The notes under the pieces were generated by a model. The model worked only from the letters and a program-made list of their open reading frames with translations. It did not search any database and was not told the DNA's origin. Of a DNA stretch of 64,000 bases, positions 4,046 through 48,714 are shown piece after piece (position 1 is the stretch's first letter; each line of letters opens with the position of its first letter). Source of the stretch: Leptolyngbya sp. SIOISBB (GTDB lineage Bacteria; Cyanobacteriota; Cyanobacteriia; Phormidesmidales; Phormidesmidaceae); NCBI GenBank assembly GCA_010671905.1, contig JAAHII010000001.1:3410001-3474000 (forward strand), read 5' to 3'. Both the position numbers and the translations under genes were made by a program.

Positions 4046-4169
4046 CACCCCGTTCTCCCGATTGCAATCAGCGTGTGGCGCTCCCATATCTCGGCTGAGA
4101 CTGAAGGCGAAGCTAGGATGCTGCAGTTGAGTGTTGAGACTGACTCATCGACGGTCAACTCTCATTTAC

Positions 4170-5315: not shown

Positions 5316-5330
5316 GCATTTACTTCACAA

Positions 5331-5391: not shown

Positions 5392-5410
5392 AGTTGGCCA
5401 GTCATTTCGA

Positions 5411-5450
5411 CAACAAAAAGTCAGCCCTGTCTTTAGCTCAGAGCTGACTT
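5411..5450 (-). terminator. Rho-independent terminator of the YHS gene
   Basis: Read on the minus strand, AAGTCAGC and GCTGACTT form a perfect 8-bp stem followed directly by TTTTTG. It lies 65 bp downstream of the stop codon of the YHS-domain gene, in the right orientation to end that transcript. Confidence 0.75.
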
Positions 5451-5514
5451 GATTCAAAACCTTTATATGAAAAGGATTGACGGCCTTTAAGGCTCCCTCA
5501 TCCTGTTAGCAAAC

Positions 5515-6288: not shown

Positions 6289-6685
6289 GGAAATCAATGA
6301 AAAACAACAGCAGGCAGGAGCCAGTTAGTAGTCAGCGACAAAGTGATAAGCCTGAAAACTAGTAGCACTCGGTCTTACAATTCAATCTGGCCAGCGGGAT
6401 AGGCCTCTAATTGAGCCATCTCTACTAAACGCTTATCAACTGAAGGAGGTGTGAGCCAGTTCTGAGGGATTTCTAAAGGACTTATGAGAAAGCGTTGAGA
6501 ACGCAACCAAAAGTTAGGTCAAGCAGCAGAATATTTACACTCTATTCAGCGCAGACCACTTGTTTAGTCTGGCAAAATGTGGCTTCGATGATGCCGACTA
6601 CCGATCGCATCGTGGTCAATAGTCTTTATGAGGTAGAAGATGGTGCTCAATGATTGATCCGCGCTCAGTTATTGAGAAATGGTAG
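6289..6685. other. Intergenic region with a possible gene remnant
   Basis: About 400 bp between the cysteine desulfurase gene and the YHS gene, both on the minus strand. It holds one short coding-like minus-strand frame (6375-6506, listed separately). I see no terminator with a good U-run. Confidence 0.4.
6375..6506 (-). CDS. Possible small protein or gene remnant
   Basis: The minus frame 6518-6375 is open for 47 codons and reads like real coding sequence (LEIPQNWLTPPSVDKRL, ending MAQLEAYPAGQIEL), but the only start candidate is TTG at 6506 and there is no ribosome site. It may be a 43-residue peptide or the tail of a decayed gene. No family recognised; low confidence. Confidence 0.25.
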   Translation of the reverse strand: MRSQRFLISPLEIPQNWLTPPSVDKRLVEMAQLEAYPAGQIEL

Positions 6686-8580: not shown

Positions 8581-9217
8581 ATGGATCAAGTAGCTATTGA
8601 TTTTTTCCGGCTGCTTATACAAGCCGGAGCGGTTCCTGGAGAAGACTTTTCCTGTGATGGTGAGCGACAGGTTTACCATCTCAACGAGCGCTGCCATAGC
8701 TTGCTGCAGGCTTCTTTTCCCTGACGTGGATTGGTTAGATATTTTGGGAGCCCCCACAACCACTCTTGAGCTGCAAGTCTTGGCCCTGCACCAACAGTTA
8801 GGGTGCGATTTTGTTGATCAGCTAATCCAGCTCATGGGGCAACGCCTAACGAAGCTGCCCGATGATGCCGCTGCCGGTTACGTGCAAGCCATTTTAGTCG
8901 GCGTGGAAAGTGCGACGGGCATAACGCTTTTCCCCTTGTTGCAAGCAGCACTTGATTTATCGACGCAAGCTCGGTTGGAATGGCTACTGCGTCAGGAGGC
9001 GATGGTTGTACCAGGGGATATCTGTTTGGCTGATCTTTTACAGGCCGCTGGCGCAACGGCTCAAGATTATGAAGTGCAGTCAGGAGAAACGTGGCTAACG
9101 GAATCTGGTTGGCAAAGGTTATCTCTAGTTTGGAATGGGGAATGTACGTTGGATGCGAGTCGGCAATTACAGCGGCGATCGCCCAACCCTCCTGAATCGC
9201 CCAACCCTCCTGAATAA
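8581..9217 (+). CDS. Unknown protein, reading frame interrupted by a +1 shift at 8722
   Basis: The N-terminal part reads best from ATG 8581 (MDQVAIDFFRLLIQAG... to LLQASFP) and meets TGA at 8722-8724. One base on, the next frame continues as DVDWLDILGAP and stays open to 9217. Joined, the product is about 211 residues: soluble, acidic, helical, with no recognised domain. The alternative single-frame start at 8597 gives a Cys/Arg-rich, unlikely N-terminus. The join falls at TTTTCCCTGAC: one surplus T in the sequence would explain it, as would +1 slippage at CCC-TGA. The C-terminus ends in an 18-bp exact duplication (SPNPPE twice). Confidence 0.55.
9179..9214 (+). repeat. Exact 18-bp tandem duplication at a gene end
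   Basis: The unit TCGCCCAACCCTCCTGAA occurs twice in a row and ends just before the TAA stop, adding SPNPPE twice to the protein tail. Confidence 0.8.
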
Positions 9218-9478
9218 GGTCATTGGTGGCTAGATCACTATAATTCAGCAGCTCCCAACCTCATCGGGCTGGTTGTACTCTGAGGGTTACCTGCGACTTG
9301 GAGCCATACCCGTTGCCAACGAAACTCGCAAGCAGTTGCCAGTTGCTTAGCAAATCGTCAGGTCTGTTCGTGAATGCTGCGCAGAGTGACATTTTGATTT
9401 CTGGCCGATGGCCGATGCTCAACCATTCATGTTTGAACTGTTATGGTGAATGAGTTTAATAATTTGTAACCTTTCTCT

Positions 9479-10060
9479 ATGCTCCAAAAAACTTATGCTC
9501 ACCTTTCTACCTGGAGTGAAAAGCCTTACGGTGAGCACATTTTGTTTTGGTTTGCCTTGGCGGAGTCTTGTATCGTACCGTTGCCTGCCGATCCACTGTT
9601 GCTCGCTTTGTGTACGGGAGCGCCGAAACGATCGCTGCGGTTTGCGCTGATTTGCGGACTGGGCTCCGTCGTTGGGGGACTGTTGGGGTACGCGATCGGG
9701 CATTACGCCTTTGACAGTATTGGCACTGCCGTTTTGCAACTCTATGATCCAGAGTTAGAAATGTTTGGGCGGGTCGAAGGCATTTACGATCAGTGGGGTT
9801 TTTGGGGTGTGTTGATGGCTGCAGTGACACCCATCCCTTATAAGATTTTCACGCTGGCGTCTGGGGTATTCGAATTTGATTTTGGTCAGTTTGTGTTGGC
9901 TTCGGTCATTGGCCGCAATGCTCGCTTTCTCTTAGTGGGGGGACTGATGGCGTATGGGGGCGATCGCGTACAGACCTGGGTGCAAACGTCTTCAGAACGT
10001 CTCTTGTGGGTGGGGCTAGGGGTAGCGATTTTGGGCCTAGTCGTCTTAAAACTCCTCTAA
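9479..10060 (+). CDS. DedA/YqaA-type (VTT-domain) membrane protein
   Basis: 193 residues. FALAESCIVPLPADPLLLALC near residue 30 and GFWGVLMAAVTPIPYKIFTL near residue 115 are the two re-entrant/amphipathic signature segments of the DedA/SNARE-associated (VTT) family, in the YqaA branch. Other hydrophobic segments are SVVGGLLGYAIGHYA, GRNARFLLVGGLMAYGG and a last helix VGLGVAILGLVVLKLL. Family members act as lipid flippase-like or proton-dependent membrane proteins that affect envelope integrity; the substrate here is unknown. It ends 38 bp before the ExoD-type gene, so the two are likely co-transcribed. Confidence 0.85.
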   Translation: MLQKTYAHLSTWSEKPYGEHILFWFALAESCIVPLPADPLLLALCTGAPKRSLRFALICGLGSVVGGLLGYAIGHYAFDSIGTAVLQLYDPELEMFGRVEGIYDQWGFWGVLMAAVTPIPYKIFTLASGVFEFDFGQFVLASVIGRNARFLLVGGLMAYGGDRVQTWVQTSSERLLWVGLGVAILGLVVLKLL

Positions 10061-13760: not shown

Positions 13761-16700
13761 TCAAGGAATCATGGCTGGGGTCACTGCTCCGCTCTGACCG
13801 TACAACTGAAAAGCGCTCCAATTGGCAGGATGAGGAAATTGGTCGCGGGTTTTAAGCATGGCTTGCTGTAGAGCGATCGCTCGATTAGGAGTTGTTTGGA
13901 GCTGCTCATAAAAAGTGGTCATCAACAGTTCCGTCGGTTCATCGGGGATGGACCAGAGCGTCACGGCAACACTGTCAACGCCAGCGGTGAGCAGCGATCG
14001 CGATAACCCCACTACGCCATCGCCAGTAATGTCTCCCTGTCCAGTGTCACAGGCACTGAGGACGGCGAGCTGAGCCGTCAAGGGCAATTCCAGAATTTCT
14101 GCAGCGGTCAGATAGCCTGCGTCATCTGCTGTGGGGGCTAGGGCTAGCGCTCCCGGAACGCCTGTGCCCAAGTCTTCTAGTAAACCATGGGTGGCTAGGT
14201 GAATGATATCGGCCTGAGGCAAGTCTTGGAGGACAGCAGCTTTAGTGGCGGCAGCGCCGATGAGCGGTTGCACATTCAGCAAGTCAGCGATCGCCCGCGC
14301 TTCGGATTCCGCTCCCTGCAAGGGGGGGAGCGGTTCATCCGTGCCAGGTAGTGGCGGCATGTCAGGATTACCCACCACCACCGCTGATAGTGTTTCGGGC
14401 TTCTCTGAGATGGTTGGTGCATCGAGGGTTAACAGGCTGATAGCTGGAGCAAACAGTAAGGGATGCTGGTCGAGCAGGGCTACGCCGTTGGGATCCATCA
14501 GGGCCGGAAAAGGTACTAAAAAGAGTTCCCCTTGCGGAACGATGATGACAGTTTCATTTGCCGCTTCGGGCAAAAAGTCAGCGATCGGCTCAATCAACAG
14601 ATCATAAAGCTGTTGCAGATGGTTGCTGGCCGCAGCCATTTCTGGCGTGGAGTCGCTAATGGCGGCTTCAATGGCGATCCCTCTTGTGGGAAGGTTGAGG
14701 GCGGCACGGCTATCGGTGACCCAACTGCTCAGCGACTGATCGGTCAGCGGCTGACTGGCAAACTGAATCTCACCATCTGTCTGGACTACCCAGATGTACA
14801 AGTCTTCGCCGACGATCGCATATTCCACCAGGGTGGCATTTTGGGTCTGAGCTACCTGGCGCATCTTGGCGGCGCTGGGTGGCTGTAACTGATCGGCGGG
14901 CACCGGCTGACCTTGTAGCGCGAGGCGATGGGCCAGCAACTCGGTAAATGCTCGGGCGCGACCGCGTTCTGAGATTTCTAAACTGGCCGGAATGTCGTTG
15001 AGAGCAATCAACGATCGCTGTAACAGTTGATAGGTCTGAGCTTGGGCTTCTGCCAAAGAAATCTTATTTTCGTCCGTCAGTCCAGGCCGCAGCGACTCCC
15101 ACAGATCAACCGTTTGGTATAGGGCGACCGCCGCCTGATCCGGCTGATTGAGTTGTAGTTGTAGTGCTCCAATCGCATTTAGCGTGGTCCCTTGATTCGC
15201 GACGTCTCCGAGTGCTTGGTAAATGGTCAAGGCGGTTTGATAGCGCTCTAGTGCGGTTGCGGGCTCGTTATTCTCAACGGCCCAGTCGCCCAAAGCTTTG
15301 AGACTGCGGGCTTGACCAGCCCGATCGCTTTGTCGTTCGCTCAGCTGTAAGGCTTTGTCTAGGTACGTTCGGGCTTTCACTAAGTTGCCTAGCTCTAAAT
15401 AGGTGGTGCCCACCCGCACGATGGCGGTGACTTCTCCGGCGCGATCGCTGCCGCGCCGATAATCCGCCAGACTGAGTTTGGCAAACCCTAAAGCCGTTGG
15501 TAATGCCTCTAATTGTTGAGCGGCCAACGCTAAACCTTCCAAAATACGTCCTTCGCGAGGTTCAGGCCGCAGCCAACTGCGATCACGGGGGGTGAGCGAC
15601 TGATACATTTCCAGGGCTTGCGTCAACGTTGCTTGAGCACGGGAGGTTTGTCCTAAGCGCAGGTAGGTGATCCCCAAATTGGTCAGTGATTCGCTGGTCC
15701 CCTGGCGATCGCCGCTTTGTTGCCGCACGGCTGCCGCGTGCTGATAAGAGTCTAGGGAATTAGCAAATTGGCCTAAGGCGTCGTAAGCGTTGCCAATTTG
15801 GTCTAAGGCATCACTTTCCCGCAGGCGATCGCCCTCGGTTTCATAAACCGCCAGCGCTGCTGTAAACGTATCGATGGCGGGCACAAAATCACCCGCTGCC
15901 AACTGCTCTTGTCCTTGGCGGTACAGGTCGGCAGCACCATCGCTAAAGACACAGACGGTTGCCGGCAAAAGCGGACAGTTTTTGCTCGGCAGGGGATTCT
16001 CGCGCAAGTCTAATTGATTGAGTGTTGATAAGGCAGAGAGGGCTGCCAGATCGGTGAGATTATTGCCGCTTAAGTCGAGTGCTCTGAGATGGCTAAAGGT
16101 GCTTAAAGCCTCAGCGTTATCAACACGATTGCCACCCAGATTTAAGTAAGTGAGCTGTTCTAAACTCGCAATTGAATTGATGGTTGAAATTTGGTTGTTG
16201 GCAAGAGAAAGTTCCGTGAGGTTAGGTAACTCTGATAAGGATTCCAGGGAGATAATCTGATTGTTGTTGGCATAGAGCTTGGTGAGCGATCGCACCTCTG
16301 CTAGCGGCTCTAAATTGAGAACTGAATTATTGTCAATCTGTAAGGTCTGTAACCCTGAAAGCTGCTTGAGAGGGCTCAAATCAGTAATTTGATTGTCAAG
16401 CAAATAGAGTTCGGTCAGATTCGATAGATTGACTAGTGGTGTCAGATCAGAAATCTGATTTTGGCTTAAATATAAGCTGGTTAACTGTGGAAAAAAGGCT
16501 AGTGGCCTGAGGTCACGAATCTCTCGATTTGTTAACTCTAATCGAGTGCGATCGCTCAGAATAGCATTCGCCTCTTGGCAGTCTGTCGTATTCGTAGTTG
16601 ACAATAATACTGATACTGTCTGTTGAGTCTCTGGAGACTGTTGTTCACGCTGTTCACAGAGTTCGACAAAGCTTTCTGCAGCGATTGTGGAGACTGCTGC

Positions 16701-16769
16701 AAATCCCCCAGCCAAACCGCTGATGGACATCGTGAGGGCAATCTTACCAGCAAGTTTCATTGTCAGCAT
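13761..16769 (-). CDS. Exported LRR-TPR-CHAT protein (caspase-like)
   Basis: 1002 residues. An N-terminal signal peptide (LAGKIALTMSISGLAGG...) is followed by leucine-rich repeats of the 22-residue SDLTPLVNLSNLTELYL type (about residues 70-270), TPR-like helical repeats (about 280-600) and a C-terminal CHAT peptidase domain. The caspase-like dyad is His861 in HLATHG and Cys907 in SACDTG. CHAT proteins cleave partner proteins after activation, often in signalling or defence; an exported one would act in the periplasm or outside. The start overlaps the stop of the upstream LRR gene (ATGCTGA), with a second ATG at 16760 possible, so translation of the two is probably coupled. Substrate unknown. 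Confidence 0.88.
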   Translation of the reverse strand: MLTMKLAGKIALTMSISGLAGGFAAVSTIAAESFVELCEQREQQSPETQQTVSVLLSTTNTTDCQEANAILSDRTRLELTNREIRDLRPLAFFPQLTSLYLSQNQISDLTPLVNLSNLTELYLLDNQITDLSPLKQLSGLQTLQIDNNSVLNLEPLAEVRSLTKLYANNNQIISLESLSELPNLTELSLANNQISTINSIASLEQLTYLNLGGNRVDNAEALSTFSHLRALDLSGNNLTDLAALSALSTLNQLDLRENPLPSKNCPLLPATVCVFSDGAADLYRQGQEQLAAGDFVPAIDTFTAALAVYETEGDRLRESDALDQIGNAYDALGQFANSLDSYQHAAAVRQQSGDRQGTSESLTNLGITYLRLGQTSRAQATLTQALEMYQSLTPRDRSWLRPEPREGRILEGLALAAQQLEALPTALGFAKLSLADYRRGSDRAGEVTAIVRVGTTYLELGNLVKARTYLDKALQLSERQSDRAGQARSLKALGDWAVENNEPATALERYQTALTIYQALGDVANQGTTLNAIGALQLQLNQPDQAAVALYQTVDLWESLRPGLTDENKISLAEAQAQTYQLLQRSLIALNDIPASLEISERGRARAFTELLAHRLALQGQPVPADQLQPPSAAKMRQVAQTQNATLVEYAIVGEDLYIWVVQTDGEIQFASQPLTDQSLSSWVTDSRAALNLPTRGIAIEAAISDSTPEMAAASNHLQQLYDLLIEPIADFLPEAANETVIIVPQGELFLVPFPALMDPNGVALLDQHPLLFAPAISLLTLDAPTISEKPETLSAVVVGNPDMPPLPGTDEPLPPLQGAESEARAIADLLNVQPLIGAAATKAAVLQDLPQADIIHLATHGLLEDLGTGVPGALALAPTADDAGYLTAAEILELPLTAQLAVLSACDTGQGDITGDGVVGLSRSLLTAGVDSVAVTLWSIPDEPTELLMTTFYEQLQTTPNRAIALQQAMLKTRDQFPHPANWSAFQLYGQSGAVTPAMIP

Positions 16770-17902
16770 GAGCTTTCATATCCTGGCGGTAAGATGGCGC
16801 CGCACAGGTTGACATCCTGCAAGTTGGCTCCATCTAAGGTGGCATGCGACAAAATAGCGTTGGTCAAATCGGCTCCCCGTAAATCAGCATTGCTGAGGTT
16901 GACCCGCTCTAAAACTGCTCCGACTAAATCAGCATTTTGCAAATTGGCATTCGATAAGTCGGACCTCTCTAAGTACACCCCGATCAAGTCAGCATTGCTA
17001 AAATCTAATCCTGCTAGATTACAGGCTAAGCATTCATTCCTCAGGTTTAATCTTCGGAAATCAACTGTTTGGAGAATCGTTACCTGGTCATCAGCTTCAA
17101 TGGGATTATTGTCGATATCAAGGTTGATGAGTTGTTCCAGATGCTGAATTGCGCTAACATCTCGTACTGCGTTGGAATCGAAACGTAATGATGTTAGCTG
17201 GGGCAGATTCTTGACTACTGAAATCTGTATGACCTGATTTTGATCAAAGACCAGGCTTTGAAGATTTACGAGGGGAGTTAGGGAATCAATTGTGCTCAGA
17301 TGGTTATGACTTAAGTTGAGCGATCGCAAATTGAGATTGGTTGATAAGGTCTCTATCGATGCAATTTGATTGTGGCTCAGATCAAGTGTTACTAACTGAG
17401 CTAGCGGTGCCAAGTCAGGCAACTCATTGATGCGGTTGCGATTCAGATAAAGGCTTTGCAAATTTGTCAGCGTAGCTAAGGGCGCAAGGTCACTGATTTG
17501 ATTACCGTTTAGCGACAGCACTTCTAGGTTGGTGAGCTGTCCTAGGGGTTCAACGGTCTGAATTTCGTTATTGCTTAGATACAGCTCTGTCAGCGATGGC
17601 AATGACGACAACACACTGACATCACGGATCTGTAGATCATTGAGCGTGAGTTGGGTCATGTCACTCAACTGACGATCGCCCATGACACAGTCGGTTGCTT
17701 CTACCGTTTGCAGGAGCTGATCGAGAGTATGTTGGGCTGCTGGCGAGAGGCGATCGCGGTTTTCACAAAGGTCTAAAAAACTGTCGTTTTCCTGAGCTTG
17801 GGCCATGATCAATCCTTGACCCAGCCAGAACGGATGGCTGACAACTGTGATGAGTGCTGTCAGTAGGAGCCGCGATCGCCCGTGCCGTTGCCTTGGCGTC
17901 AT
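16763..17902 (-). CDS. Exported leucine-rich-repeat / pentapeptide-repeat protein
   Basis: About 379 residues from ATG 17902; in-frame ATGs at 17926, 17929 and 18016 are possible but would lengthen the region before the signal peptide (RSRLLLTALITVVSHPF... ending MAQA). After a short Cys-containing part come about nine LRR units of the DLAPLATLTNLQSLYLNRN kind, then from about residue 300 pentapeptide repeats such as LSNANLQNADLVG and LSNADLRGADLTN. Internalin-like LRRs bind proteins and pentapeptide helices form rigid rods, so a binding or scaffold role is likely. Its LRRs resemble those of the CHAT protein downstream, which overlaps it, so the two probably work together. Confidence 0.82.
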   Translation of the reverse strand: MTPRQRHGRSRLLLTALITVVSHPFWLGQGLIMAQAQENDSFLDLCENRDRLSPAAQHTLDQLLQTVEATDCVMGDRQLSDMTQLTLNDLQIRDVSVLSSLPSLTELYLSNNEIQTVEPLGQLTNLEVLSLNGNQISDLAPLATLTNLQSLYLNRNRINELPDLAPLAQLVTLDLSHNQIASIETLSTNLNLRSLNLSHNHLSTIDSLTPLVNLQSLVFDQNQVIQISVVKNLPQLTSLRFDSNAVRDVSAIQHLEQLINLDIDNNPIEADDQVTILQTVDFRRLNLRNECLACNLAGLDFSNADLIGVYLERSDLSNANLQNADLVGAVLERVNLSNADLRGADLTNAILSHATLDGANLQDVNLCGAILPPGYESSC

Positions 17903-18125
17903 CTTCAGGTTGGAATGCTGAACCATCATCAACCGACTCAAAATTTGGTCAGCAAAATTACGTTTTACTGCAATTATCTTGGCAGAAAAGCTCCTTCTCG
18001 GTTTTCGTAGACACATGCTTGTATTAGGTAATGTGTCTTACCCAGAATCGCCTATTGGCCAGACAGTCTCACTTGGCTAGGTCGATAGCGATGACTAGTA
18101 ATATTTGTAACGCCTGATCCGTATT

Positions 18126-38276: not shown

Positions 38277-39536
38277 CTATCGGTTGGGGGGAGGAGAATG
38301 GGGCGCTAACTCAAGATCGTCTTGAATCGCTTGCTCTAGCAAGCGATTCGGCTTCGGTCGAGTCGGGTTGCCGAGGCCGACATATTTTTCGACTAGGGTG
38401 AGTAGTTCATGGGCACCAAAGGGCTTTGTGAGGTAATCAGTGGCCCCTGCCATGCGAGCCTTAACGCGATCGATAAAACCATCTTTGCCCGTCAGCATGA
38501 TAATGGGCGTTTGGCGAAAAACGGTGGACTGTCGGAGCATGGCACAGAGTTGGTAACCTTCGAGCTCTGGCATGGCAATGTCACAGAGGATCAGATCGGG
38601 CTGTAATTGAAACAGTAGGCTGAGAGCCCGGAGCGGATTGCCAATGGACGTGGCTTCATAACCGTGCTCATCCAGAATCTGTTCGATCGCCTGGCGAATC
38701 GTGACGCCATCATCGACACAGACGATGCGGGGAACTTGGGTGGCATGCCAGTCTTCAGAGGATTCATGCTGGGGCAGCGCCACAGGGATATCGGGCAAGT
38801 GAATAATGCTCTGCCGGACGTAGGGATAAATGCCCTTAGCTACGGTGACGACACCTTTGTTGAGATAGCGAGCAATTTGTTGAATAGATGTGTTGCCATC
38901 CATCCATCTCAACATGCGAGTGGTTTTTTCATCAGTTGAGTCGTGGGCCTGCAGTTTTTGAATGACGGTGGGGCACTGATGCGGGGATTGAATATGGGGG
39001 TAGAACTGCTTCCAAGCCTGGATTTGGGTCGTGATGGTAGCGACTAAAGAACTGATTGCGAAGGTCGTTAGTTGAGGACTCAAACCAGCAGACAGCTTAA
39101 AGACAAAGGTCCCTTGATGCAGGCTCAACAAATCAAATAGAGTTTCTTGCACCATGCCATTGAGAATCTGCCGACCTTGCTCTGGGGTCAGGGTGTGATT
39201 TTCGAGCAGTGCCCACAGATAGCCATATTCAGGAGAGTTGAAAGTCGCGATCGCTGGGACATCGAGATCTTGGAGAGAATTGTTGAGATCATAGCGATGC
39301 AGATAGCTGCGCAGTCGGCTCAAACTACCATCGGTCGTGCCCGCATACACAATTTGTCCGTTGAGAAAGAAGACCAACCAGGAATGGGGCGACTGGGTTA
39401 GGGTCGCAGTCGTTTCGGTCCCAAAAACAGTTGGTAGCGGGGTATACGCTTCGACATAAAGTTCGCCAGTCCGTTGACCCAACTCTATGAGCTGTAAGAT
39501 GCTCCGAATATCAATTTCCGCCAACTGGCCCTGCAT
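38277..39536 (-). CDS. PatA-type response regulator (PATAN/DUF4388 + receiver; PilG/PixG-like)
   Basis: 419 residues. The N-terminal PATAN (DUF4388) domain, MQGQLAEIDIRSILQLIELG and WLVFFLNGQIVYAG, covers about residues 1-190, followed by a helical linker with RMLRWMDGNTSIQQIARYL. The receiver starts near residue 265: RIVCVDDGVTIRQ, phospho-Asp in DLILCDIAMPELEGYQ, MLTGKDG and KPFGAHELL. PatA-type regulators contact pilus extension machinery and direct phototactic or gliding polarity in cyanobacteria. First gene of the operon. The tail of about 25 residues ends in Pro-rich sequence. Confidence 0.9.
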   Translation of the reverse strand: MQGQLAEIDIRSILQLIELGQRTGELYVEAYTPLPTVFGTETTATLTQSPHSWLVFFLNGQIVYAGTTDGSLSRLRSYLHRYDLNNSLQDLDVPAIATFNSPEYGYLWALLENHTLTPEQGRQILNGMVQETLFDLLSLHQGTFVFKLSAGLSPQLTTFAISSLVATITTQIQAWKQFYPHIQSPHQCPTVIQKLQAHDSTDEKTTRMLRWMDGNTSIQQIARYLNKGVVTVAKGIYPYVRQSIIHLPDIPVALPQHESSEDWHATQVPRIVCVDDGVTIRQAIEQILDEHGYEATSIGNPLRALSLLFQLQPDLILCDIAMPELEGYQLCAMLRQSTVFRQTPIIMLTGKDGFIDRVKARMAGATDYLTKPFGAHELLTLVEKYVGLGNPTRPKPNRLLEQAIQDDLELAPHSPPPNR

Positions 39537-40025
39537 AGATGTGTGACCGTTCCCGGTAAAAAGCTGTTGATATAATTTAGCGTTGTTCGTGCCTGAGAGA
39601 AATCATCAGCGACGATTACGCTGGACAAGTCTTAATACTTAACCCTTAAGCTGTCTGGAACGCAACTTTCCCCAGAGGTGCTGGCTGGTGCTGCTGCTCA
39701 CACCGTTATTCCTTAGTCGGCTCCAGTTGCCTCCAATCATATTGCCTTCCAGGGAGAATGTCTTGCGAGTGTTTGGCAGGGCGGCGATCGCCGCTTTTCC
39801 CTGCTCATATCCAGATATCAGGGGTGTTCATGCCAGTCCCTTTAACCATTGGTCACGATCCTGAGAAGAGCAGCAAAGAATTGCTACGAAGTGCCGCGTT
39901 CTGTCCTGCCTTGGCGACTCCCTGGGTATGTTCATGGCATTGTGGTGCTCATCAGCTAATCAGTTTGTGGGCTGAGCGGGCTATCCCTGGCGCTGCAATC
40001 AAGTCCTCTGAGATGTTGATGAGTT
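39537..40025. other. Divergent intergenic region before the TPS-CHAT genes
   Basis: About 490 bp between the chemotaxis operon and the first TPS-CHAT gene. It must hold the promoters of both units. No element could be assigned with confidence, and no gene was seen that does not conflict with the TPS-CHAT start. Confidence 0.4.
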
Positions 40026-43000
40026 ATGATGACCTTCCCTCGGCCAGCGATCGTCCTCCTGATGGCCTTCTGTACTGGTCTGAACGGTTCTCATGCTTGG
40101 GCTGACGGCATTATCCCTGCGCCTGACGGTACCGGCACGCAAGTCACGACGAACGATGCTGCTCATACGATCACCGGGGGAACCACTTCTGCGGATCAGC
40201 AAAACCTGTTTCATCGGTTTACTGAGTTCAATCTGCCGACGGGCGCTAGCGCCACCTTTATGACTGATCCGGCAGTGCTGAACATTCTCAGCGGCGTGAA
40301 TGGCAGCAACCCTTCCATCATTGACGGCTTACTGCAAGTCAGTGGCTCGAATGCCAATTTATTTCTCGTCAATCCCAATGGCATTTTGTTGGGGCCGAAT
40401 GCGGCGTTGAACTTACAAGGGAGTTTCACCGCTGTGACAGCAGATCAGGTGAACTTTGCCACAGGTGCATTTGGCGTGATCGGTTCGCCTGACTACGCGG
40501 CCCTCGTAGAGGCTCCTCAAAGCTTCAGCTTTAGTTTGGAGCAGCCTGCCAGTGTGGTGAACGCCGGTAACTTACGGGTATTGCCGGGGGAATCCGTGAT
40601 TTTGATGGGGGGCCAGGTGCTCAACACCGGCACGATCGCGGCTCCGGGTGGCAACATTTTGGTGAGCGCAGTAGACGGCGGTAGCTTGGTGCGCATTGCT
40701 CAAGCGGGCCAGTTGTTGAATTTAGAAGTAACCGCCCTGGCTGAGGTGGCATCGGTAACGGCTACGGCCTTTTCGCCGTTGAGTTTGCCAGAGTTATTGA
40801 CGAGTAATGCGATCGCTCAAGCGACTGATGTCACAGTGAACGCTGACGGTACGATCACCCTTAGCGAGTCGGCTGTGGCGGTGCCCACTCATCCAGGCAC
40901 GGCGGTCATCAGCGGCCTGCTGGAGACTGACAGTACGGGGCAGGGCGGTCAGATCACGGTGCTGGGAACAACGATCGGCTTACTCGCAGCTGAGGTAAGT
41001 ACTACAGGGGAGAGCGGCGGCGGCACCATTCGCGTAGGTGGCGATTACATGGGAGGTGGTCTGCTGCCGACAGCCGCCGTGACCTTTGTGGATGAGGGAT
41101 CGACTTTAGTCGCGGATGCGATCGCCCAAGGTGATGGTGGCACCATCATTCTCTGGTCGGAGGAAACGACCCGGAGCTATGGCTTTTTGAGCGCTCGCGG
41201 GGGGGGTAATGGTGGTGATGGCGGCCTGGTTGAAACCAGCAGCCGAGGTTTTTTGGAAACGGCTGGTGTACCCGATATTACGGCCCCCAGTGGTCAAGCC
41301 GGGAATTGGCTATTAGATCCTTTGGATATTCAAATTGTGGATGCTGATAGCACAGCGACAATGGGTTTCCCTCCCGGCAATCCGTTCACCGCTCAGTCCA
41401 GTCCAGCCGTCATCAGCTGGTTAGATATCGAAGCTGCTTTGAGTGCTGGGGGGACTGTCACCGTGGCGACCGGTGGTGCCGGTGGCGAAGCTGGCAACAT
41501 CGATGTTGAGGGGTTTGAACTTGATACGGGTGCTAACGGGACGTTGGAATTTCGCGCTGCTAGCGACATCACCATTCTGGGAGAAGTCGCGAGTGTTGGT
41601 GGTGCGACAAATTTTGATTTTCGGGCAGATACCGATAATAACGGCAATGGTGAAGTGATTGTTCAGGCACCGCTCAAATCAGGCGGCGGTGACATCACAC
41701 TTGAAGGGACCAATGTCATTGTGACCAGTGGTGGCGTGATTAATGCCGAAGGTGGAACGCAGACGATCATCAGAACGAGTCAAAACAACCCGCCTAATGA
41801 GAACTTGGGTGATAACCCGGGCGGTAATAATGATGGGCCTGGTGGCGATCTAGGGTTTGAGGGAGACGACTTTGGCGGTCCCGATGACTTTGGCGATGGT
41901 CCCGATGACTTTGGGGGGCCCGATGATTTTGGCGATGGCCCCGACGACTTTGGCGATGGCCCCGATGACTTTGGGGACGGTCCTGATGACTTTGGGGACG
42001 GTCCCGATGACTTTGGGGGCGACGGTGAAGAAGAGGGTGGCGATCGCCGCCGAGATCGTCAGGGTGGTGATGAAGAGGATGGCTTTGAAGAGGGAGATGA
42101 GTTTGGTGAGGGAGACGATTTTGCCGAAGGCCGCGACGGTCGCGAGTCGGGTGATCGCGACTTTGATGCTAATGCGGAAGACCTCACAGGTGATGATTGG
42201 GCCTTTGAAGAGTCTGTTTATGCCGATGACTTTGTCAATTATTTTGATTTCCCTGTCATCTCTGAACCTGACTTGGCCACTAGTCAAGACACATTGCAAA
42301 CGCTCACCCAACAGGTGGGTACGGCCTCTGGGCTGATTTATGCTCGATTTACCCCAGCTGGCTCGTCGGCAGCGCCGCGATCGCTCAAGCAATTATCCAA
42401 TCCCCAGCCGACGGATATCCTCCAACTGGTGATCGTGACTCCTGAGGGCCAGCCTCGACAAATCGAGGTGCCGGGTGCCACCCGCGAAAAGGTGATCGCT
42501 GCTGTGCGTAGTCTGCAACTCGAACTCACGGATCGCACCCGGCGTCGACTCACGGATTACCTGCGTCATTCTCAACTGCTGTATGACTGGCTCATTGCCC
42601 CAGTTGAGCCAGTGCTGGTAGCCGAAGACATCGGCCATGTGTCCATGATTATGGCGCCAGGGTTGCGATCGTTGCCCATGGCGGCCCTCCACGACGGCGA
42701 GCAATTCATCATCGAAAAATACACCGTCGGTCTGATGCCTAGTCTGGCCCTGACTGACCTGCGCTATACCGATGTGCGACAGGCCCCTGTGCTGGCCATG
42801 GGCGCATCCGAATTTACCGATCAGCCTGATTTGCCGGCGGTGCCATTTGAACTCAGCACCATTGTGGACAATTTGAGGCAGGGGCAGCGCAACCTGAATG
42901 AAACCTTTACGCCTCAAACCCTAGTTTCCTTGCGTCAAACTGATAACTACCGCATTTTGCACTTAGCTACTCACGGTGAGTTTCGTGCTGGCGGCCCCGA

Positions 43001-43448
43001 AAATTCATATATTCAGTTTTGGGATCAGCGTCTCAATCTGGCGCAGTTGCCAGAGTTGCAGCTCAATAATCCGCCGCTGGAATTATTAGTGATGAGTGCC
43101 TGTAAAACCGCTTTAGGTGACTCGTCTGCTGAACTCGGCTTTGCCGGGTTGGCGGTACAAGCAGGGGTGAAATCGGCGTTAGCTTCACTCTGGCAAGTGA
43201 GTGATTTAGAAACGGCTGGCCTGATGACAGAGTTTTATACCCAACTCAGCCAGCAATCTTACAAAGCCGAAGCGTTACGGCAAGCACAACTGGCTATGTT
43301 ACGAGGTGAAGTCACCGTCCAAGACGGCATGTTGACCTGGAGTGGGGGCACTCAACCACTGCCAGAAGACTTAGCTAATCTGCGATTTGGCAATACCCAA
43401 CACCCTTATTATTGGGCAGCATTTACTTTGGTTGGGAGTCCGTGGTGA
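40026..43448 (+). CDS. TPS-CHAT protein 1: secreted haemagglutinin-domain / caspase-like protein
   Basis: 1140 residues. Signal peptide to about residue 26. The two-partner-secretion (haemagglutination activity) domain follows with DGLLQVSGSNANLFLVNPNG and GPNAALNLQGSFTAVTA, then a beta-helix to about 585. An acidic linker (about 590-740) has seven GPDDFG units and then Glu/Asp/Arg-rich sequence. From about 795 comes a CHAT domain with His983 in HLATHG and Cys1026 in MSACKTALG, and an ending shared with its neighbour. TPS proteins cross the outer membrane through a TpsB pore; no TpsB gene is in the window. Predicted to release or display a caspase-like protease outside the cell. Substrate unknown. 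Confidence 0.9.
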   Translation: MMTFPRPAIVLLMAFCTGLNGSHAWADGIIPAPDGTGTQVTTNDAAHTITGGTTSADQQNLFHRFTEFNLPTGASATFMTDPAVLNILSGVNGSNPSIIDGLLQVSGSNANLFLVNPNGILLGPNAALNLQGSFTAVTADQVNFATGAFGVIGSPDYAALVEAPQSFSFSLEQPASVVNAGNLRVLPGESVILMGGQVLNTGTIAAPGGNILVSAVDGGSLVRIAQAGQLLNLEVTALAEVASVTATAFSPLSLPELLTSNAIAQATDVTVNADGTITLSESAVAVPTHPGTAVISGLLETDSTGQGGQITVLGTTIGLLAAEVSTTGESGGGTIRVGGDYMGGGLLPTAAVTFVDEGSTLVADAIAQGDGGTIILWSEETTRSYGFLSARGGGNGGDGGLVETSSRGFLETAGVPDITAPSGQAGNWLLDPLDIQIVDADSTATMGFPPGNPFTAQSSPAVISWLDIEAALSAGGTVTVATGGAGGEAGNIDVEGFELDTGANGTLEFRAASDITILGEVASVGGATNFDFRADTDNNGNGEVIVQAPLKSGGGDITLEGTNVIVTSGGVINAEGGTQTIIRTSQNNPPNENLGDNPGGNNDGPGGDLGFEGDDFGGPDDFGDGPDDFGGPDDFGDGPDDFGDGPDDFGDGPDDFGDGPDDFGGDGEEEGGDRRRDRQGGDEEDGFEEGDEFGEGDDFAEGRDGRESGDRDFDANAEDLTGDDWAFEESVYADDFVNYFDFPVISEPDLATSQDTLQTLTQQVGTASGLIYARFTPAGSSAAPRSLKQLSNPQPTDILQLVIVTPEGQPRQIEVPGATREKVIAAVRSLQLELTDRTRRRLTDYLRHSQLLYDWLIAPVEPVLVAEDIGHVSMIMAPGLRSLPMAALHDGEQFIIEKYTVGLMPSLALTDLRYTDVRQAPVLAMGASEFTDQPDLPAVPFELSTIVDNLRQGQRNLNETFTPQTLVSLRQTDNYRILHLATHGEFRAGGPENSYIQFWDQRLNLAQLPELQLNNPPLELLVMSACKTALGDSSAELGFAGLAVQAGVKSALASLWQVSDLETAGLMTEFYTQLSQQSYKAEALRQAQLAMLRGEVTVQDGMLTWSGGTQPLPEDLANLRFGNTQHPYYWAAFTLVGSPW
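41863..42020 (+). repeat. Repeat encoding seven GPDDFG units
   Basis: Units of 18-21 bp (Gly-Pro-Asp-Asp-Phe-Gly with or without Asp) repeated seven times, preceded by one shorter GDDFG, in the linker between beta-helix and CHAT domain of TPS-CHAT protein 1. Confidence 0.85.
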
Positions 43449-43612
43449 CGATCAGCCAGACATCATCCTCAGAAGCGATTCGCATGATTTCTGATGGCTA
43501 AAAACTGATAATTCTCGTTGCAAACTACCCGCAACCTGAGAGGAATCATCTCTAATGATTCGTAATGCTGGGGTAGATCTTCGAACACCGATTGCGGAAC
43601 TATCGCGGGAGA

Positions 43613-46600
43613 ATGCGCATGAGACTGTTGGGATTTGGAGCGATCGCGAGCACGAGCGCTACAGTCTTGCTGAGCCTACCGGTGCTGCCGGTACAAGCTG
43701 AGGGAATTGTCCCTGCCGCGAATGCTACAGGGACCCAAGTCACGCCGAATGGCACCGATCACATCATCACGGGCGGTACCCCTTCCACTGATCAGCAAAA
43801 CCTCTTTCACCAATTCACTGAATTCAATCTACTGACTGGTGAAAGCGCCACGTTTGTCACGAATCCGACCATTCTCAATATTCTCAGTGGGGTGACGGGG
43901 AGTACTCCATCGGTGATTGATGGTTTGCTGCAAGTCAGTGGTTCGAATGCCAATCTGTTTTTGATCAATCCCAATGGTATTCTCTTTGGCCCCAATGCCG
44001 CTCTCAACTTGCAAGGCAGCTTCACAGCAGTAACGGCTGATCAGGTCAATTTTGCGACTGGGGCATGGGAGATGGCGGGGGCTTCAGAGTATGCGTCCCT
44101 AGTCGGCACACCGCAAAGCTTCAGCTTTAGCCTTGAGAATCCTGCCAGCCTTGTAAATGCTGGTGACCTGGCAGTGTCACCGGGTGAATCAGTGGTCCTC
44201 CTCGGTGGACAAGTCTTAAATACGGGTACGATTACCGCTCCAGGTGGCGCAGTCATCATCAGTGCTGTGGAGGGAGATAATCTTGTCCGCATCGTTCAAG
44301 AGGGTTCTCTGCTCAATCTAGAAGTGGCAACCTCAGCGGAAAGTGCGGCTCCGCTGATGCCTTTTTCACCATTAACTTTGCCAGCGTTGTTGACGGGGAA
44401 TGAGAGTGTCCTGGCTGACACTGTTACGGTCATGCCAGATGGCACAGTCCAACTCGTTATAGGAGCGGCTGTAGATAGTGCTGTGGGCTCAGCAAGCATT
44501 GCCGGAACCGTAGATGTTGCGCACACCCAAGGCGGACAAATTCTGGTGTTGGGTAATGATATTACGCTGACAGGGGCTCTGCTCGAAGCCTCTGGGATAA
44601 ATGTCGGTGGTTTAGTCAGAGTGGGCGGTGACTATCAAGGTCAAGGGGCTCTACCCCGTGCCCAAACGAATCATGTAGATAGCAACACACTGATTCGTGC
44701 AGATGCTCTAGATGCGGGTGATGGTGGCGAAGTGATTATTTGGGCCGATGGCACGACCTTATTCCAAGGGTTGGTGACGGCTCAGGGTGGCCCCAATGGT
44801 GGTGACGGTGGATTGGTGGAAACCTCTGGCCGTCAATCGATTGAGATTGATGGTGGGCAAGTTGATGCGAGTGCGGCCCAAGGCACTGCTGGCCTGTGGT
44901 TTGTTGATCCTAACAATATCGAAATTAATGAGGGCCTCGCGCTCATGATTGAGTTGGCATTAGAAGGTGGCACCAGCTTTACCGCGTCTACCATCGATGG
45001 TGATCCGACAGATGCTACACCCGAGCCAGGTGATGGCGATATCTTGCTCAACAGCGAGATTGATGCAGACGCCATCAATAATGCCACGCTAACCCTAACG
45101 GCTTCCCGCTACATTCAGCGGGGTGAGGGTGAATTTGAAGTGATCCCCTTCATCAATATTTCGGGTGGCAATCTGGTATTAAACCTGAATCAAGAAGGCT
45201 TAGCTGACGCGACGAATCCGACCATCAATAATGCCCTTGAGATTATTGGCTCGGTTGAAGGCACGACCACGATCAATTTAGGCTCGGGGACATACCAAGA
45301 AACGGAAACTATTTTCCTGGATTCTGATACGCAACTGCAGGGAACCGGTGCCAACAATACTCTCATTGACGGTGTTCTCGGTGACGATGACGTGCCCGTT
45401 ATTGTCGTGTCAGGGGCTAGTGAGCCCGATGGAGTAGCGACTCAAATCAATGGTCTGACTATTGCCAATAGTGTCAATGAAGTCGGCTCTGGCGGAGGTA
45501 TTCGCAACGAAGGCGACCTCATCATTAATAACAGCGTACTTCGTAATAATGAGGCTGAATTGGGTGGTGGAATTAGCAATGAAGGGGGCATTGTCACCAT
45601 TAATAACAGCACTATTCACAACAACAGTGCTGTTATTAATGGTGGTGGAATTTATAACGAGAGCGGGACAATCACTGTTAACAACAGCACGATTCATGAC
45701 AATAGCGCAGGCTTTGAGGGTGGGGGAATTGACAATGAAAGTGGGGCACTGACTGTCAATAGCAGCACCATTCATAGCAACTCTGCGGGTAATGTGGGTG
45801 GCGGCATTGACAATGGCATCGGTGTTGGGACAGCCACTATCTTCAACAGCACGATCGCTAACAATACTGCGGTTGATGCTGGCGGTGGAATTTTCAACGA
45901 TCGCTCAATGACTATCTCTAACAGCACGATTGTTGCCAATACTGCTGACCTCGCTGGGGGCATTGGCAATAGCACTGAAGGAAGAGTCGATGGGGGAGTC
46001 CTCAAAATTACTAGCAGCTTAATTAGTGGCAACAGTGCCAGCGAGGGTATTGGTGCCAATATTAGCAATGGCGCTAACTTGACCAGCGGCGGCAATAACC
46101 TCTTTGGGGCGAGTAATGATGCTGGAATTTTTGGCTTTTCGCTGGTGGCTAGCGACATTGTACCGACAGTGCCTCTAGGAGAGATTATTTCAACCACGCT
46201 GGCGGATAATGGCGGACCCACCCCAACGTTGGCACTCGTGGCTGGGAGTCCGGCGATCGATGCGGGGAGTGGTTCTGGGCCAGATCAGCGAGGTGTCGCG
46301 GTGGCTAATGGCATTCGTGATATTGGCGCATACGAATCAACTGAGTCAGACGGTAACAGTGGTAGTCCGACGAATCCTGACTTTGAGTGTGTGGCTGGGG
46401 ATTGTGATCCAATCACGATTACATCACCAGAAGATACCGACTCCCCTTCAAATGATGGCGCAGAGGCCACGGATGTTCGGCAATTTGAAGACTATCTCGG
46501 TGTCGAAGCGGCAGCCTTTGAAGATGTGGATGCCCTCAATCGCGCCCGTAATCAAACTGGTGTGACACCCGCGATCGCTTATGCCAGTTTTGTGTCGCCG

Positions 46601-47782
46601 AGTGATGATCCTGACGTGGTCGTGACGAATACTCACACCTTTGCTGATGCGGGTGCTGCTAGCAAAGGTGTGGCTGTCAACGATGACTTAGGGCGCCAGA
46701 TAGTCGCTCAGGCTGAAGGCCAGCTACCGGCTGAAGCGAGATCTAGTGAAGAAGAAGTGCTACAGCTGGTACTCGTCACTGCGGACAATACGCCGCGACG
46801 CATCAATACTGGCGCTACCCGCAGCGAGGTATTAGCGGCGGTGCGGCAACTCCAAATTGAGTTGACTGACCGCACCCGTCGCCGCTTAGATAGCTACTTA
46901 ATTCCGGCACAAGCGCTCTATGGTTGGCTGATGACGCCCCTTGAACAAGCGTTAGCGGCGGAAGATATTGGACATGTCTCCTTTGTGCTAGATGAGGGCC
47001 TGCGATCGCTACCCCTTGCGGCCCTGCATGATGGTGAGCAATTTATCATCGAAAACTATAGCGTGGGGCTGATGCCCAGCCTTTCTCTCACGGATACACG
47101 GATTGGCAATGTGCGTAATGCTTCAGTGCTAGCAATGGGAGCCTCGGAGTTTAGCGATCAGCCCCCTTTACCGGCGGTATCGCTCGAAATTGCGGCCATT
47201 GGCGACCTCTGGTCTGGAGAAGCCTTTATCAATGAAACTTTTACTCCAGAAACGTTGGTCGAGCAGCGAGCGGAAGATGCATATGCCATTCTGCACTTAG
47301 CCACCCATGGTCAATTTACCAGTGGCGAGTTGGGCAATTCCTATATCCAGTTTTGGGATCGGCGCTTAGGTTTGGACGAATTACCCCAACTGCAGCTTAG
47401 CGATCCGGCGGTAGAATTGCTGGTTTTGAGTGCTTGCCAGACTGTTTTGGGTGATTCAGAAGCGGAATTGGGCTTTGCCGGATTGGCCATTAAGTCAGGG
47501 GCTAAAAGCGCGATCGCAGCCCTGTGGCAGGTGAGTGATCTCGAAACGGCGGGCTTAATGGCAGAACTGTATACCCACTTAGGGCAAGCGACTTATAAAG
47601 CCGAAGCCCTGCGCCAGGCCCAGTTAGCGATGCTCAGAGGTGACGTGACTGTGCAAGATGACAGACTCGTTTGGAGTGGTGGCAGCGAACCGGTCCCTGA
47701 CGAATTTAGCGGGACTAGGTTTGCCGATACTCGCCACCCTTATTACTGGTCTGCTTTCACCTTGGTGGGCAATCCTTGGTAA
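43613..47782 (+). CDS. TPS-CHAT protein 2: secreted haemagglutinin-domain / beta-helix / caspase-like protein
   Basis: About 1389 residues from ATG 43613 (ATG 43619 also fits, with GGAG at good spacing; a TTG at 43592 is unlikely). Signal peptide, then a TPS domain nearly matching protein 1 (DGLLQVSGSNANLFLINPNG). The middle differs: a right-handed beta-helix with repeated NNSTIHNNSA- and GGGI-type turns (about residues 620-840), ending DQRGVAVANGIRDIGAYE. No GPDDFG units. The C-terminal CHAT domain has His1232 in HLATHG and Cys1275 in LSACQTVLG. It starts 165 bp after protein 1, so the two are probably co-transcribed. Likely secreted by the same TpsB. Confidence 0.9.
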   Translation: MRMRLLGFGAIASTSATVLLSLPVLPVQAEGIVPAANATGTQVTPNGTDHIITGGTPSTDQQNLFHQFTEFNLLTGESATFVTNPTILNILSGVTGSTPSVIDGLLQVSGSNANLFLINPNGILFGPNAALNLQGSFTAVTADQVNFATGAWEMAGASEYASLVGTPQSFSFSLENPASLVNAGDLAVSPGESVVLLGGQVLNTGTITAPGGAVIISAVEGDNLVRIVQEGSLLNLEVATSAESAAPLMPFSPLTLPALLTGNESVLADTVTVMPDGTVQLVIGAAVDSAVGSASIAGTVDVAHTQGGQILVLGNDITLTGALLEASGINVGGLVRVGGDYQGQGALPRAQTNHVDSNTLIRADALDAGDGGEVIIWADGTTLFQGLVTAQGGPNGGDGGLVETSGRQSIEIDGGQVDASAAQGTAGLWFVDPNNIEINEGLALMIELALEGGTSFTASTIDGDPTDATPEPGDGDILLNSEIDADAINNATLTLTASRYIQRGEGEFEVIPFINISGGNLVLNLNQEGLADATNPTINNALEIIGSVEGTTTINLGSGTYQETETIFLDSDTQLQGTGANNTLIDGVLGDDDVPVIVVSGASEPDGVATQINGLTIANSVNEVGSGGGIRNEGDLIINNSVLRNNEAELGGGISNEGGIVTINNSTIHNNSAVINGGGIYNESGTITVNNSTIHDNSAGFEGGGIDNESGALTVNSSTIHSNSAGNVGGGIDNGIGVGTATIFNSTIANNTAVDAGGGIFNDRSMTISNSTIVANTADLAGGIGNSTEGRVDGGVLKITSSLISGNSASEGIGANISNGANLTSGGNNLFGASNDAGIFGFSLVASDIVPTVPLGEIISTTLADNGGPTPTLALVAGSPAIDAGSGSGPDQRGVAVANGIRDIGAYESTESDGNSGSPTNPDFECVAGDCDPITITSPEDTDSPSNDGAEATDVRQFEDYLGVEAAAFEDVDALNRARNQTGVTPAIAYASFVSPSDDPDVVVTNTHTFADAGAASKGVAVNDDLGRQIVAQAEGQLPAEARSSEEEVLQLVLVTADNTPRRINTGATRSEVLAAVRQLQIELTDRTRRRLDSYLIPAQALYGWLMTPLEQALAAEDIGHVSFVLDEGLRSLPLAALHDGEQFIIENYSVGLMPSLSLTDTRIGNVRNASVLAMGASEFSDQPPLPAVSLEIAAIGDLWSGEAFINETFTPETLVEQRAEDAYAILHLATHGQFTSGELGNSYIQFWDRRLGLDELPQLQLSDPAVELLVLSACQTVLGDSEAELGFAGLAIKSGAKSAIAALWQVSDLETAGLMAELYTHLGQATYKAEALRQAQLAMLRGDVTVQDDRLVWSGGSEPVPDEFSGTRFADTRHPYYWSAFTLVGNPW

Positions 47783-47870
47783 TGGATGGTTTGCTCTATC
47801 CTATTTAACTGCTGTCCTAGTTTGGGCTGCAAGGTCGATGATCCTAAGGGCGGCACTATCGGATGATTTG

Positions 47871-47898
47871 GGCTAGAGGCCAGTCTATGCCTCTAGCC
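47871..47898. terminator. Terminator-like hairpin between convergent genes
   Basis: GGCTAGAGGC and GCCTCTAGCC form a perfect 10-bp stem with an 8-base loop between TPS-CHAT 2 and the HAD gene, which converge here. There is no U-run, so it is only a candidate. Confidence 0.4.
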
Positions 47899-47928
47899 TC
47901 GTCTATGCCGCTACTGACGACTGCTAGA

Positions 47929-48714
47929 TCATGCTTGACTCAGTTTGATGATTTGGGTTGCGGTCAGATCAGTCAACTGGGGAAAAACGATGTCGGCCCC
48001 AGCTGCCAGCAAGCGATCGCTGTATGCGGCAGCATAGTCAGTACCTGCCGCCACGACATGAGGCGGCAAAATGCCGACACCAATCCAGTGACCCTCCGGA
48101 CGCTGGGTTCGCGCTTGTTGCACCGTGTGCATATCGGCCACAGTATCACCAGCGTATACAGTGGGCACAGCCAGAGAGCCTCCCAATTGTGCCGCAGCTT
48201 GAAAGAAGCCAGTCGGGTCAGGCTTACTCGGGGCATCGTGCATCGCAATCAACAGTGGCTCTGGGAGTCCCAAGCGCTGCTCTAAGATAAAACGGGCAGA
48301 ACCTCGGGTAGCCCCGCTAAAAAAGCCCCAAGCCACGTCTCCTTGAGTGAGTTGCTCAAAATACTGGGTAGTGACCAAGATCGGTTCTTGGGTGATGTAT
48401 CCCGTCCACTGGGTCGGATCTTCGAGTACGGGACCCCGATAACGCCGTTGAAAAAAATCAACTAACGCCTCAAAGTCAATCTTGATCGTGGTTCGTGACT
48501 GCCCCTGGCCTTCAAAGTAGCGATAAACAAATTCCTTCGACGCTTCCCAATCATTATTCCAGCAGCCTTCAGCCTTGAGACTGTCAATGTCCGTCGGGGA
48601 AGGTCGATAGTGTCCTTCCGTAAAGTGTTCAACGGTATCGGCAAGTGCTCGTCGATAAGAGCCGCCCACATCGCGAATCACGCCATCAATGTCAAAAATT
48701 GAGATCGCCTTCAC
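47929..48714 (-). CDS. HAD-superfamily hydrolase (TIGR01548-like)
   Basis: 261 residues from GTG 48714, with AGGGGA upstream as ribosome site. HAD motif I is FDIDGVIRDVGG at the N-terminus, motif II is FFSGATRGSARF, motif III Lys is in DAPSKPDPTGF and motif IV is YAGDTVADMHTV. A helical cap lies between motifs I and II. The layout matches the TIGR01548 subfamily, seen in cyanobacteria and near histidine-pathway genes elsewhere, with no proven substrate. Soluble, cytosolic. It stands alone here. Confidence 0.85.
   Translation of the reverse strand: MKAISIFDIDGVIRDVGGSYRRALADTVEHFTEGHYRPSPTDIDSLKAEGCWNNDWEASKEFVYRYFEGQGQSRTTIKIDFEALVDFFQRRYRGPVLEDPTQWTGYITQEPILVTTQYFEQLTQGDVAWGFFSGATRGSARFILEQRLGLPEPLLIAMHDAPSKPDPTGFFQAAAQLGGSLAVPTVYAGDTVADMHTVQQARTQRPEGHWIGVGILPPHVVAAGTDYAAAYSDRLLAAGADIVFPQLTDLTATQIIKLSQA

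Follow-up and report, generated by a model that had tools for sequence, protein, structure and literature searches.

In two-partner secretion (TPS), an exported protein carries a TPS domain that is recognised by its outer-membrane partner TpsB. We describe here P1 and P2, two neighbouring genes of Leptolyngbya sp. SIOISBB that both couple a TPS start with a C-terminal CHAT domain, a caspase-like peptidase fold; they lie in a 64,000-nucleotide stretch of contig JAAHII010000001.1 (positions 3,410,001 to 3,474,000, forward strand), whose whole length is called "the window" in what follows. Judged by their domains, P1 and P2 are TpsA-type exoproteins, probably secreted, and their closest precedent, by analogy, is the HMW1A/HMW2A pair of Haemophilus, the starts and ends of which are alike. 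In non-typeable Haemophilus influenzae, these paralogous TPS exoproteins are most variable in their central binding domain (36% identity), which comes behind a signal peptide and a propiece that contains the secretion domain; the loci are mentioned to undergo gene conversion, which can swap the binding domains (PMC8262952).

P1 and P2 share with HMW1A/HMW2A a like start and end around a divergent centre, and the start of P1 matches the HMW1 propiece structure 2odl. However, the HMW loci are apart from each other and each has B and C genes of its own, whereas P1 and P2 are adjacent with no TpsB near them; binding domains can be swapped there (PMC8262952), whereas the start is the part seen converted here; and the C-terminus of P1 and P2 is a CHAT domain instead of a small HMW-type anchor, so that we do not file them as HMW adhesins. 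Meningococcal TpsA proteins are modular as well: the N-terminal region, in which the TPS domain lies, is highly conserved, and the remainder undergoes recombination; their hyper-variable C-terminus, which carries growth inhibition and immunity ORFs (open reading frames), is exchanged with tpsC cassettes (PMC3848433). Our pair has the same modular build with an N-terminal TPS domain, but its C-terminus is constant. TPS export, as predicted for P1/P2, is also found in CdiA/BcpA, which have the variable C-terminal toxin and immunity gene of contact-dependent inhibition (CDI; PMC5422565), neither of which is seen at P1/P2. Finally, a CHAT domain with conserved His and Cys relates the pair to the TPR-CHAT proteins (PF12770); here, however, CHAT stands behind a TPS solenoid, and no tetratricopeptide repeat (TPR) was matched in P1 or P2 (Pfam, E 0.01). 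L056, another TPS-CHAT protein of the same genome, does have TPRs. No paper on TPS-CHAT proteins was found in the literature, which was searched as open-access text, so this absence is weak; the available part of PMC10907252 holds nothing on them either.

We consider it likely that P1 and P2 are an ancient tandem TPS-CHAT pair whose CHAT ends and middles were kept by descent, and whose start was overwritten at least three times by conversion from one neighbour to the other, with export through a shared TpsB.

Conflicting Histories of the Start and the End

Comparison of P1 with P2 by blastp gives exactly two blocks, i.e., a start block (P1 26-437 with P2 36-445, 61% identity) and an end block (P1 797-1140 with P2 1055-1396, 67% identity), between which nothing aligns at E 1e-3. 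The first-pass annotation of this DNA had described paralogues with the same CHAT end and unlike middles, and both descriptions stand; even divergence along the whole length was looked for and not found. Its "nearly the same" TPS start holds for about residues 50-200 and fails elsewhere, and third codon positions agree at only 0.20-0.46 over the whole alignment. Such a low agreement indicates that the pair is old and was not recently converted; indeed, recent gene conversion within this very pair is ruled out, as its third codon positions are saturated. In Pfam, the TPS domain PF05860 is matched with E 2.6e-37 in P1 and 3.4e-39 in P2, and the CHAT domain PF12770 with E 8.4e-66 and 1.9e-65, respectively; a TIGR01901 match was also found for the TPS start, and an NPNG motif stands at residue 116 of P1 and 126 of P2.

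In order to place the pair in its family, we searched 59 genomes (G-numbers below; G000 is the genome of Leptolyngbya sp. SIOISBB, hereafter the own genome, and L-numbers are loci). Matches to P1 at E 1e-20 or better were found in 54 of them, the own genome included, and P2 gave the same count. The sequence set was made of 60 stretches chosen from those matches, plus own-genome loci and two named loci. It held 64 ORFs with both TPS and CHAT, from which two were dropped (L164, the same gene as L059, and L178, truncated), leaving 62 fused proteins from 34 genomes with 366 to 2242 residues between TPS and CHAT. One has to keep in mind that this is a chosen set and no census. A tblastn search of plasmids with P2 returned 13 records, none covering 80% of P2.

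Quick trees were built with 62 rows and careful trees with 15 rows; rows were labelled P1 or P2 according to full-length matches and the CHAT tree, and the TPS tree supplied the groups that were tested on CHAT data. In the careful CHAT tree, the five P2 rows form a clade (support 100/98) inside an 11-row group that also takes in the P1 rows and G015's single gene (100/100), which supports, for the CHAT end, the duplication proposed at first. The careful TPS tree conflicts with this picture: it joins P1 and P2 of G012 (98/97), P1 and P2 of G004 (100/99), and, in a group of five rows, both own genes, both genes of G001, and P2 of G005 (100/98). In approximately unbiased (AU) tests, TPS data reject the P2 clade (log-likelihood difference 144, p 1e-4) and the P1 clade (p 4e-5), and on CHAT data each of the three groupings by genome or lineage is rejected (p 1e-5, 4e-52, and 3e-6). 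When the two P2 copies with recent conversion are omitted, TPS data continue to reject a P1 clade (log-likelihood difference 19.8, p 0.0076), a result supporting an older conversion in the ancestor of the own genome, G001, and G005. We infer at least three gene conversions of the start, namely a recent one in G012, a recent one in G004, and an earlier one in that ancestor.

The first-pass annotation had instead favoured duplication followed by exchange of the central part. Spelled out, a P1-like gene would have been duplicated and its centre replaced, start and end being alike by descent alone with no later conversion of the start. Such a history suits the like ends and unlike middles, the single group formed by the CHATs of P1, P2, and G015, and the matches of the P1-type middle to single genes in other genera; we nevertheless find it improbable, as the trees of start and end are incompatible and a 97% start next to a 69% CHAT end, as in G012, is impossible from one duplication. 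Gene conversion, which that annotation had asked to be searched for, is thus real, but the part seen converted is the start and not the middle.

Borders of the Converted Tracts

The clearest tract is that of G012, where identity between the two starts is 96.9% along 869 bp (P2 nt -26 to 842), after which similarity ends abruptly, the CHAT ends being 69% identical; third codon positions agree at 0.88-0.97 in the tract vs 0.30-0.53 in the CHAT block. The identity drop falls within P1 residues 256-295 in the own, G012, and G004 pairs. Within the own pair, paralogue and orthologues are about equally similar up to P1 residue ~255, after which the paralogue falls clearly behind. Read from these alignments, the tracts end just behind the TPS domain, at about residue 255-285; that copying stops just behind the export domain in three cases fits selection for one shared exporter.

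Behind this border, the post-TPS block (residues ~262-450) tells another story. A 12-row tree sets the P1 rows, G015, and G021 apart from the P2 rows (99/97), and the grouping of the own genome, G001, and G005 is rejected there (p 6e-11), as is the G004 pair (p 3e-5); the P2 row of G012 sits on a very long branch. A 77-row tree of the same block recovers a P1 clade (98) and a P2 clade (99, without G012), and P1 plus P2 as one clade is not rejected (p 0.41).

Orthologues and the Two Middles

G001 has both genes, with gene order and flanking genes as in the own genome; we read these flanking genes as PatA-like, HAD, and AtpD. P1 and P2 are also in tandem in G012, where the flanking genes of the window are unmatched in the 19 kb fetched. 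Both genes occur in G004 as well, its P1 contig ending within a second TPS start, and G003 has P1 only within the 20 kb fetched. In G005, P2 is present and P1 is reduced to a decayed 3' remnant with stops (L164, about 9098-9564), between the PatA-like gene and P2: this lineage lost P1 and kept P2.

Counting the own genome, the middle type is identical within five P1 genes and within five P2 genes. Exchange of middles among the orthologues compared is thereby ruled out, and the exchange of the central part put forward in the first-pass annotation shrinks to at most one ancient event. The P1 middle is shorter in the own genome and G001 than in G003, G004, and G012, and the single gene of G015, near P1 by CHAT, is without the acidic linker. 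This linker, correctly recognised from the start, holds seven GPDDFG units at P1 618-664 encoded by a 21-bp array (pattern search: 7 matches vs 0.01 expected), with a net charge of -52 over residues 601-760. The NNSTIHNNSA-type helix described in P2 is equally confirmed, as seven GG(G)IxN turns at 634-793, spaced 24-28 residues and followed by a choice-of-anchor Q domain. Searched alone in Pfam, the P2 middle gave nothing and the P1 middle just a weak DUF2345 match (E 0.22).

Solenoid middles might simply evolve too fast to be aligned, with no exchange having taken place, and the middles are indeed among the fastest-changing parts in orthologues too. Two orthologous P1s at similar TPS-side identity (own vs G012, 62%) nevertheless align up to residue 563, and P1 and P2 middles match different protein sets, which makes ordinary divergence an unlikely account. 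In our searches of ORFs, of which the best 14 matches were listed, P1's own middle matches only CHAT-fused proteins, and the P2 middle matches both TPS-only and CHAT-fused proteins, including CHAT-fused ones of G049; these differing sets place the two centres in different classes. In the tandem pairs of G037 and G041, the middles resemble each other, so that unlike middles are no necessary result of tandem duplication.

P2 residues 561-933 match three other genes of the own genome (best E per gene 1e-12 to 1e-17). All three are TPS proteins without a CHAT match and, together with P2, they make up the four choice-of-anchor Q matches of this genome; a TpsB gene lies about 4 kb away from two of them and not from the third. 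As far as sequence similarity goes, P2 joins to CHAT a passenger known from non-CHAT TPS proteins. It is therefore possible, and we say so with some reserve, that P2 did not arise as a complete copy of P1: a protein with TPS domain, helix and choice-of-anchor Q domain would have been joined to a duplicated CHAT 3' end, its start being later overwritten from P1, a scenario compatible with the conversions proposed above. The recurrence of the helix in the three TPS-only genes speaks for it, as does the separation of P2 from P1, G015, and G021 in the 12-row post-TPS tree. On the other side, the 77-row tree does not reject a P1+P2 clade, so that a replaced and a merely diverged block both fit; the helix also matches the CHAT-fused proteins of G049; and repeated helices can resemble each other by convergence.

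The first-pass annotation had further likened the pattern to that of polymorphic exoproteins such as contact-dependent toxins, with the exception that the C-terminus is kept here and the middle varies. The TPS export domain and the modular build would agree with a polymorphic toxin system, in which a variable effector stands behind a constant export part, but the constant part is here the C-terminus, the next downstream gene (47929-48714) is on the opposite strand relative to P2, no adjacent immunity gene of CDI type was seen, and the middle type does not vary in five genes on each side. We give hardly any credence to this explanation and rejected the polymorphic toxin/CDI class on account of the conserved C-terminus and the strand of the next gene; with the middle type fixed on both sides, the pattern finds no support at the genus/family level.

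Homogenised Starts in Other Within-Genome Pairs

We compared TPS and CHAT identities in 43 within-genome and 1848 between-genome pairs. TPS identity relative to CHAT is higher in within-genome pairs (Mann-Whitney p 4e-4, the pairs not being independent). Five pairs exceed every matched between-genome pair, i.e., those of G004 (72 matched pairs), G012 (32), G041 (16), G049 (676), and G051 (953); a sixth candidate, G037, had 3 matched pairs for comparison. The tandem pair of G041 is patchy, with 100% stretches among stretches of about 70%.

Several points weigh against repeated start conversion and shared export as the explanation of the pair. Homogenisation of the starts is not a general feature and is absent from the pairs of G006, G019, G030, and G034, and the own pair is itself unremarkable, with no recent conversion (TPS 0.73 at CHAT 0.66, above 71% of 34 matched between-genome pairs). 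The G004 case rests on contig ends (505 bp at 97.2% identity, up to the contig edge). In the 12-row tree of the post-TPS block, the P1 clade has a support of just 81/90, and the G012 pair is not rejected there (p 0.051); likewise, the grouping of P1 with G015 by CHAT has a support of 93 in the quick tree and is not resolved by the careful one. The conserved His and Cys of CHAT are no mark of the fused proteins, since they are also present in 25 of the 26 CHAT ORFs of the own genome that have 200 or more aligned residues. Finally, there is no TpsB near the pair: the nearest POTRA_2 match of the 11 in the genome is about 148 kb off, with none within 147 kb, which suggests a shared TpsB acting in trans. 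A neighbouring TpsB being usual but not required, its absence speaks only against a complete TPS operon.

Proposed Export of CHAT Domains and Their Linkage with TPS Genes

P1 residues 23-564 match EtpA (8vba) by sequence (phmmer, E 1.9e-38); this match and that to 2odl, both found for P1 only, allow a beta-solenoid start to be assigned to P1. The CHAT His and Cys are kept in 62 of 62 fused proteins; we take this pair of residues to be the catalytic dyad, and a peptidase role is predicted for both CHAT ends. No solved relative was found with a four-row profile, and structure prediction was poor for P2 439-1396 alone (predicted local distance difference test, pLDDT, 39) and for P1 767-1140 with a four-row alignment (pLDDT 43).

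The sequences support the following course. The CHAT ends have been separate since before the own genus and G012 parted, each middle type has remained with its CHAT end, and the start (signal region and TPS domain, to about residue 255-285) was rewritten at least three times by conversion between neighbours. Conversion, or selection for it, may keep both export tags fit for one shared TpsB encoded elsewhere. The stalks would differ, with an acidic flexible linker in P1 and a helix plus choice-of-anchor Q domain in P2, and both may carry a CHAT peptidase of one kind on the outside of the cell, where it would cleave its own protein or other surface proteins. The most economical picture is that of two exported CHAT proteins with unlike stalks, whose export tags conversion keeps interchangeable. 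Two kinds of likeness are told apart here in one genome, CHAT being alike by descent and selection and TPS by repeated copying.

Of the 17 unfused TPS genes of the own genome, 9 have a CHAT gene no more than 9 kb away (shifting gives an expectation of 1.25; none of 5000 shifts is as high). We extended the count to seven genomes (the own one and six chosen ones), always among the CHAT matches listed: CHAT is in the same open frame for 24 of 91 TPS genes, and the 67 unfused ones include 41 with CHAT no more than 9 kb away (expectation 7.3, maximum 16 in 1000 randomisations); in 27 of those 41, CHAT follows downstream on the same strand (expectation 2.1, maximum 8). Fusion was called from equal open-frame lengths; the 40 CHAT matches of the own genome were entered as 36 places after merging fragments, and the own-genome count is 8 rather than 9 here, as distance was measured from the 5' end. 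The null is a simple one, with genes placed uniformly and the clustering of such genes ignored.

Of the 54 fused proteins whose TPS starts before residue 80, 32 pass a crude hydropathy cut, vs 31% of 187 other own ORFs. Of the stand-alone CHAT genes beside own TPS genes, seven out of eight reach 1.9 on this scale (first 60 residues) and the eighth 1.88, against the same 31%, which fits export but is no proof of it. The linkage suggests that some of the many cyanobacterial CHAT proteins act outside the cytoplasm. In contrast, genes of TpsA maturation proteases appear not to be part of TPS operons according to a TPS review (PMC5422565). More broadly, and as a tentative proposal only, cyanobacteria may run a large extracellular caspase-like system, in which CHAT would be exported fused to TPS proteins or encoded beside them, and conversion of the TPS end would keep paralogues on a shared exporter while their stalks diversify.

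On contigs C1 and C2 of the own genome (L058, L187, L188, L189, L190, L191, and L194), a same-strand order of TPS followed by CHAT recurs, in some cases with a TpsB match between them or nearby. At L043 (C2, 316500-331500), positions 639-5638 hold a TPS ORF (316 aa) and then a CHAT ORF (1101 aa, ending LVGSPW); the two ORFs look like the halves of another TPS-CHAT gene that was split, or like the result of a sequencing error.

Layout of the Pair and Neighbouring Genes

The features of the two genes are collected in Table 1. P1 and P2 are on the same strand with a spacing of 143 bp, and the true start of P2 is probably the in-frame ATG at 43613, not the TTG at 43592. Promoter-like (7 vs 7.0 expected) and terminator-like (7 vs 7.6) sites in 39400-48000 are at chance level and uninformative on co-transcription.

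Table 1. Features of P1 and P2 in window coordinates.
Feature	Coordinates	Strand	Basis and remarks
P1, TPS exoprotein with acidic linker and C-terminal CHAT	40026..43448	+	1140 aa; ORF list, Pfam, blastp
P1 N-terminal hydrophobic segment, signal-peptide-like, ends HAWA	40026..40103	+	Read by eye from sequence
P1 TPS domain and neighbouring residues, 26-255	40101..40790	+	Pfam, trees; rows group by genome in the tree of this stretch
P1 post-TPS block, residues 256-437	40791..41336	+	Block tree, protein searches; follows P1 orthology
P1 own middle, residues 438-600	41337..41825	+	Search of ORFs; matches only CHAT-fused proteins
21-bp tandem array encoding acidic GPDDFG linker of P1	41877..42016	+	Repeat and pattern search
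P1 CHAT block, residues 796-1140	42411..43445	+	Pfam, blastp, alignment; conserved H983, C1026
P2, TPS exoprotein with GGGIxN helix, choice-of-anchor Q and C-terminal CHAT	43592..47782	+	1396 aa; ORF list, Pfam, blastp
P2 TPS domain, residues 36-255	43697..44356	+	Pfam, trees
P2 post-TPS block, residues 262-445	44375..44926	+	Block trees; clade of its own
P2 GGGIxN/NNSTI helix turns, residues 634-793	45491..45970	+	Motif reading; related stretches in three non-CHAT TPS genes, same genome
P2 choice-of-anchor Q domain, residues 869-916	46196..46339	+	Domain profile match
P2 CHAT block, residues 1054-1396	46751..47779	+	Pfam, blastp, alignment; conserved H1239, C1282

A third CHAT gene of the window was found by its CHAT match at 13761-16769 (minus strand); in our own reading, it has leucine-rich repeat (LRR)- and TPR-like repeats before CHAT and a signal-like N-terminus, and an LRR/pentapeptide-like ORF (16763-18016) adjoins it. 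Elsewhere in the own genome, a dense CHAT island of about 55 kb (contig C1, 6943271-6998694) holds 13 CHAT matches and no TPS match. The window also has, at 5515-6297 on the minus strand, an ORF with many NPCAADPCA-type cysteine repeats followed by a different C-terminal part.

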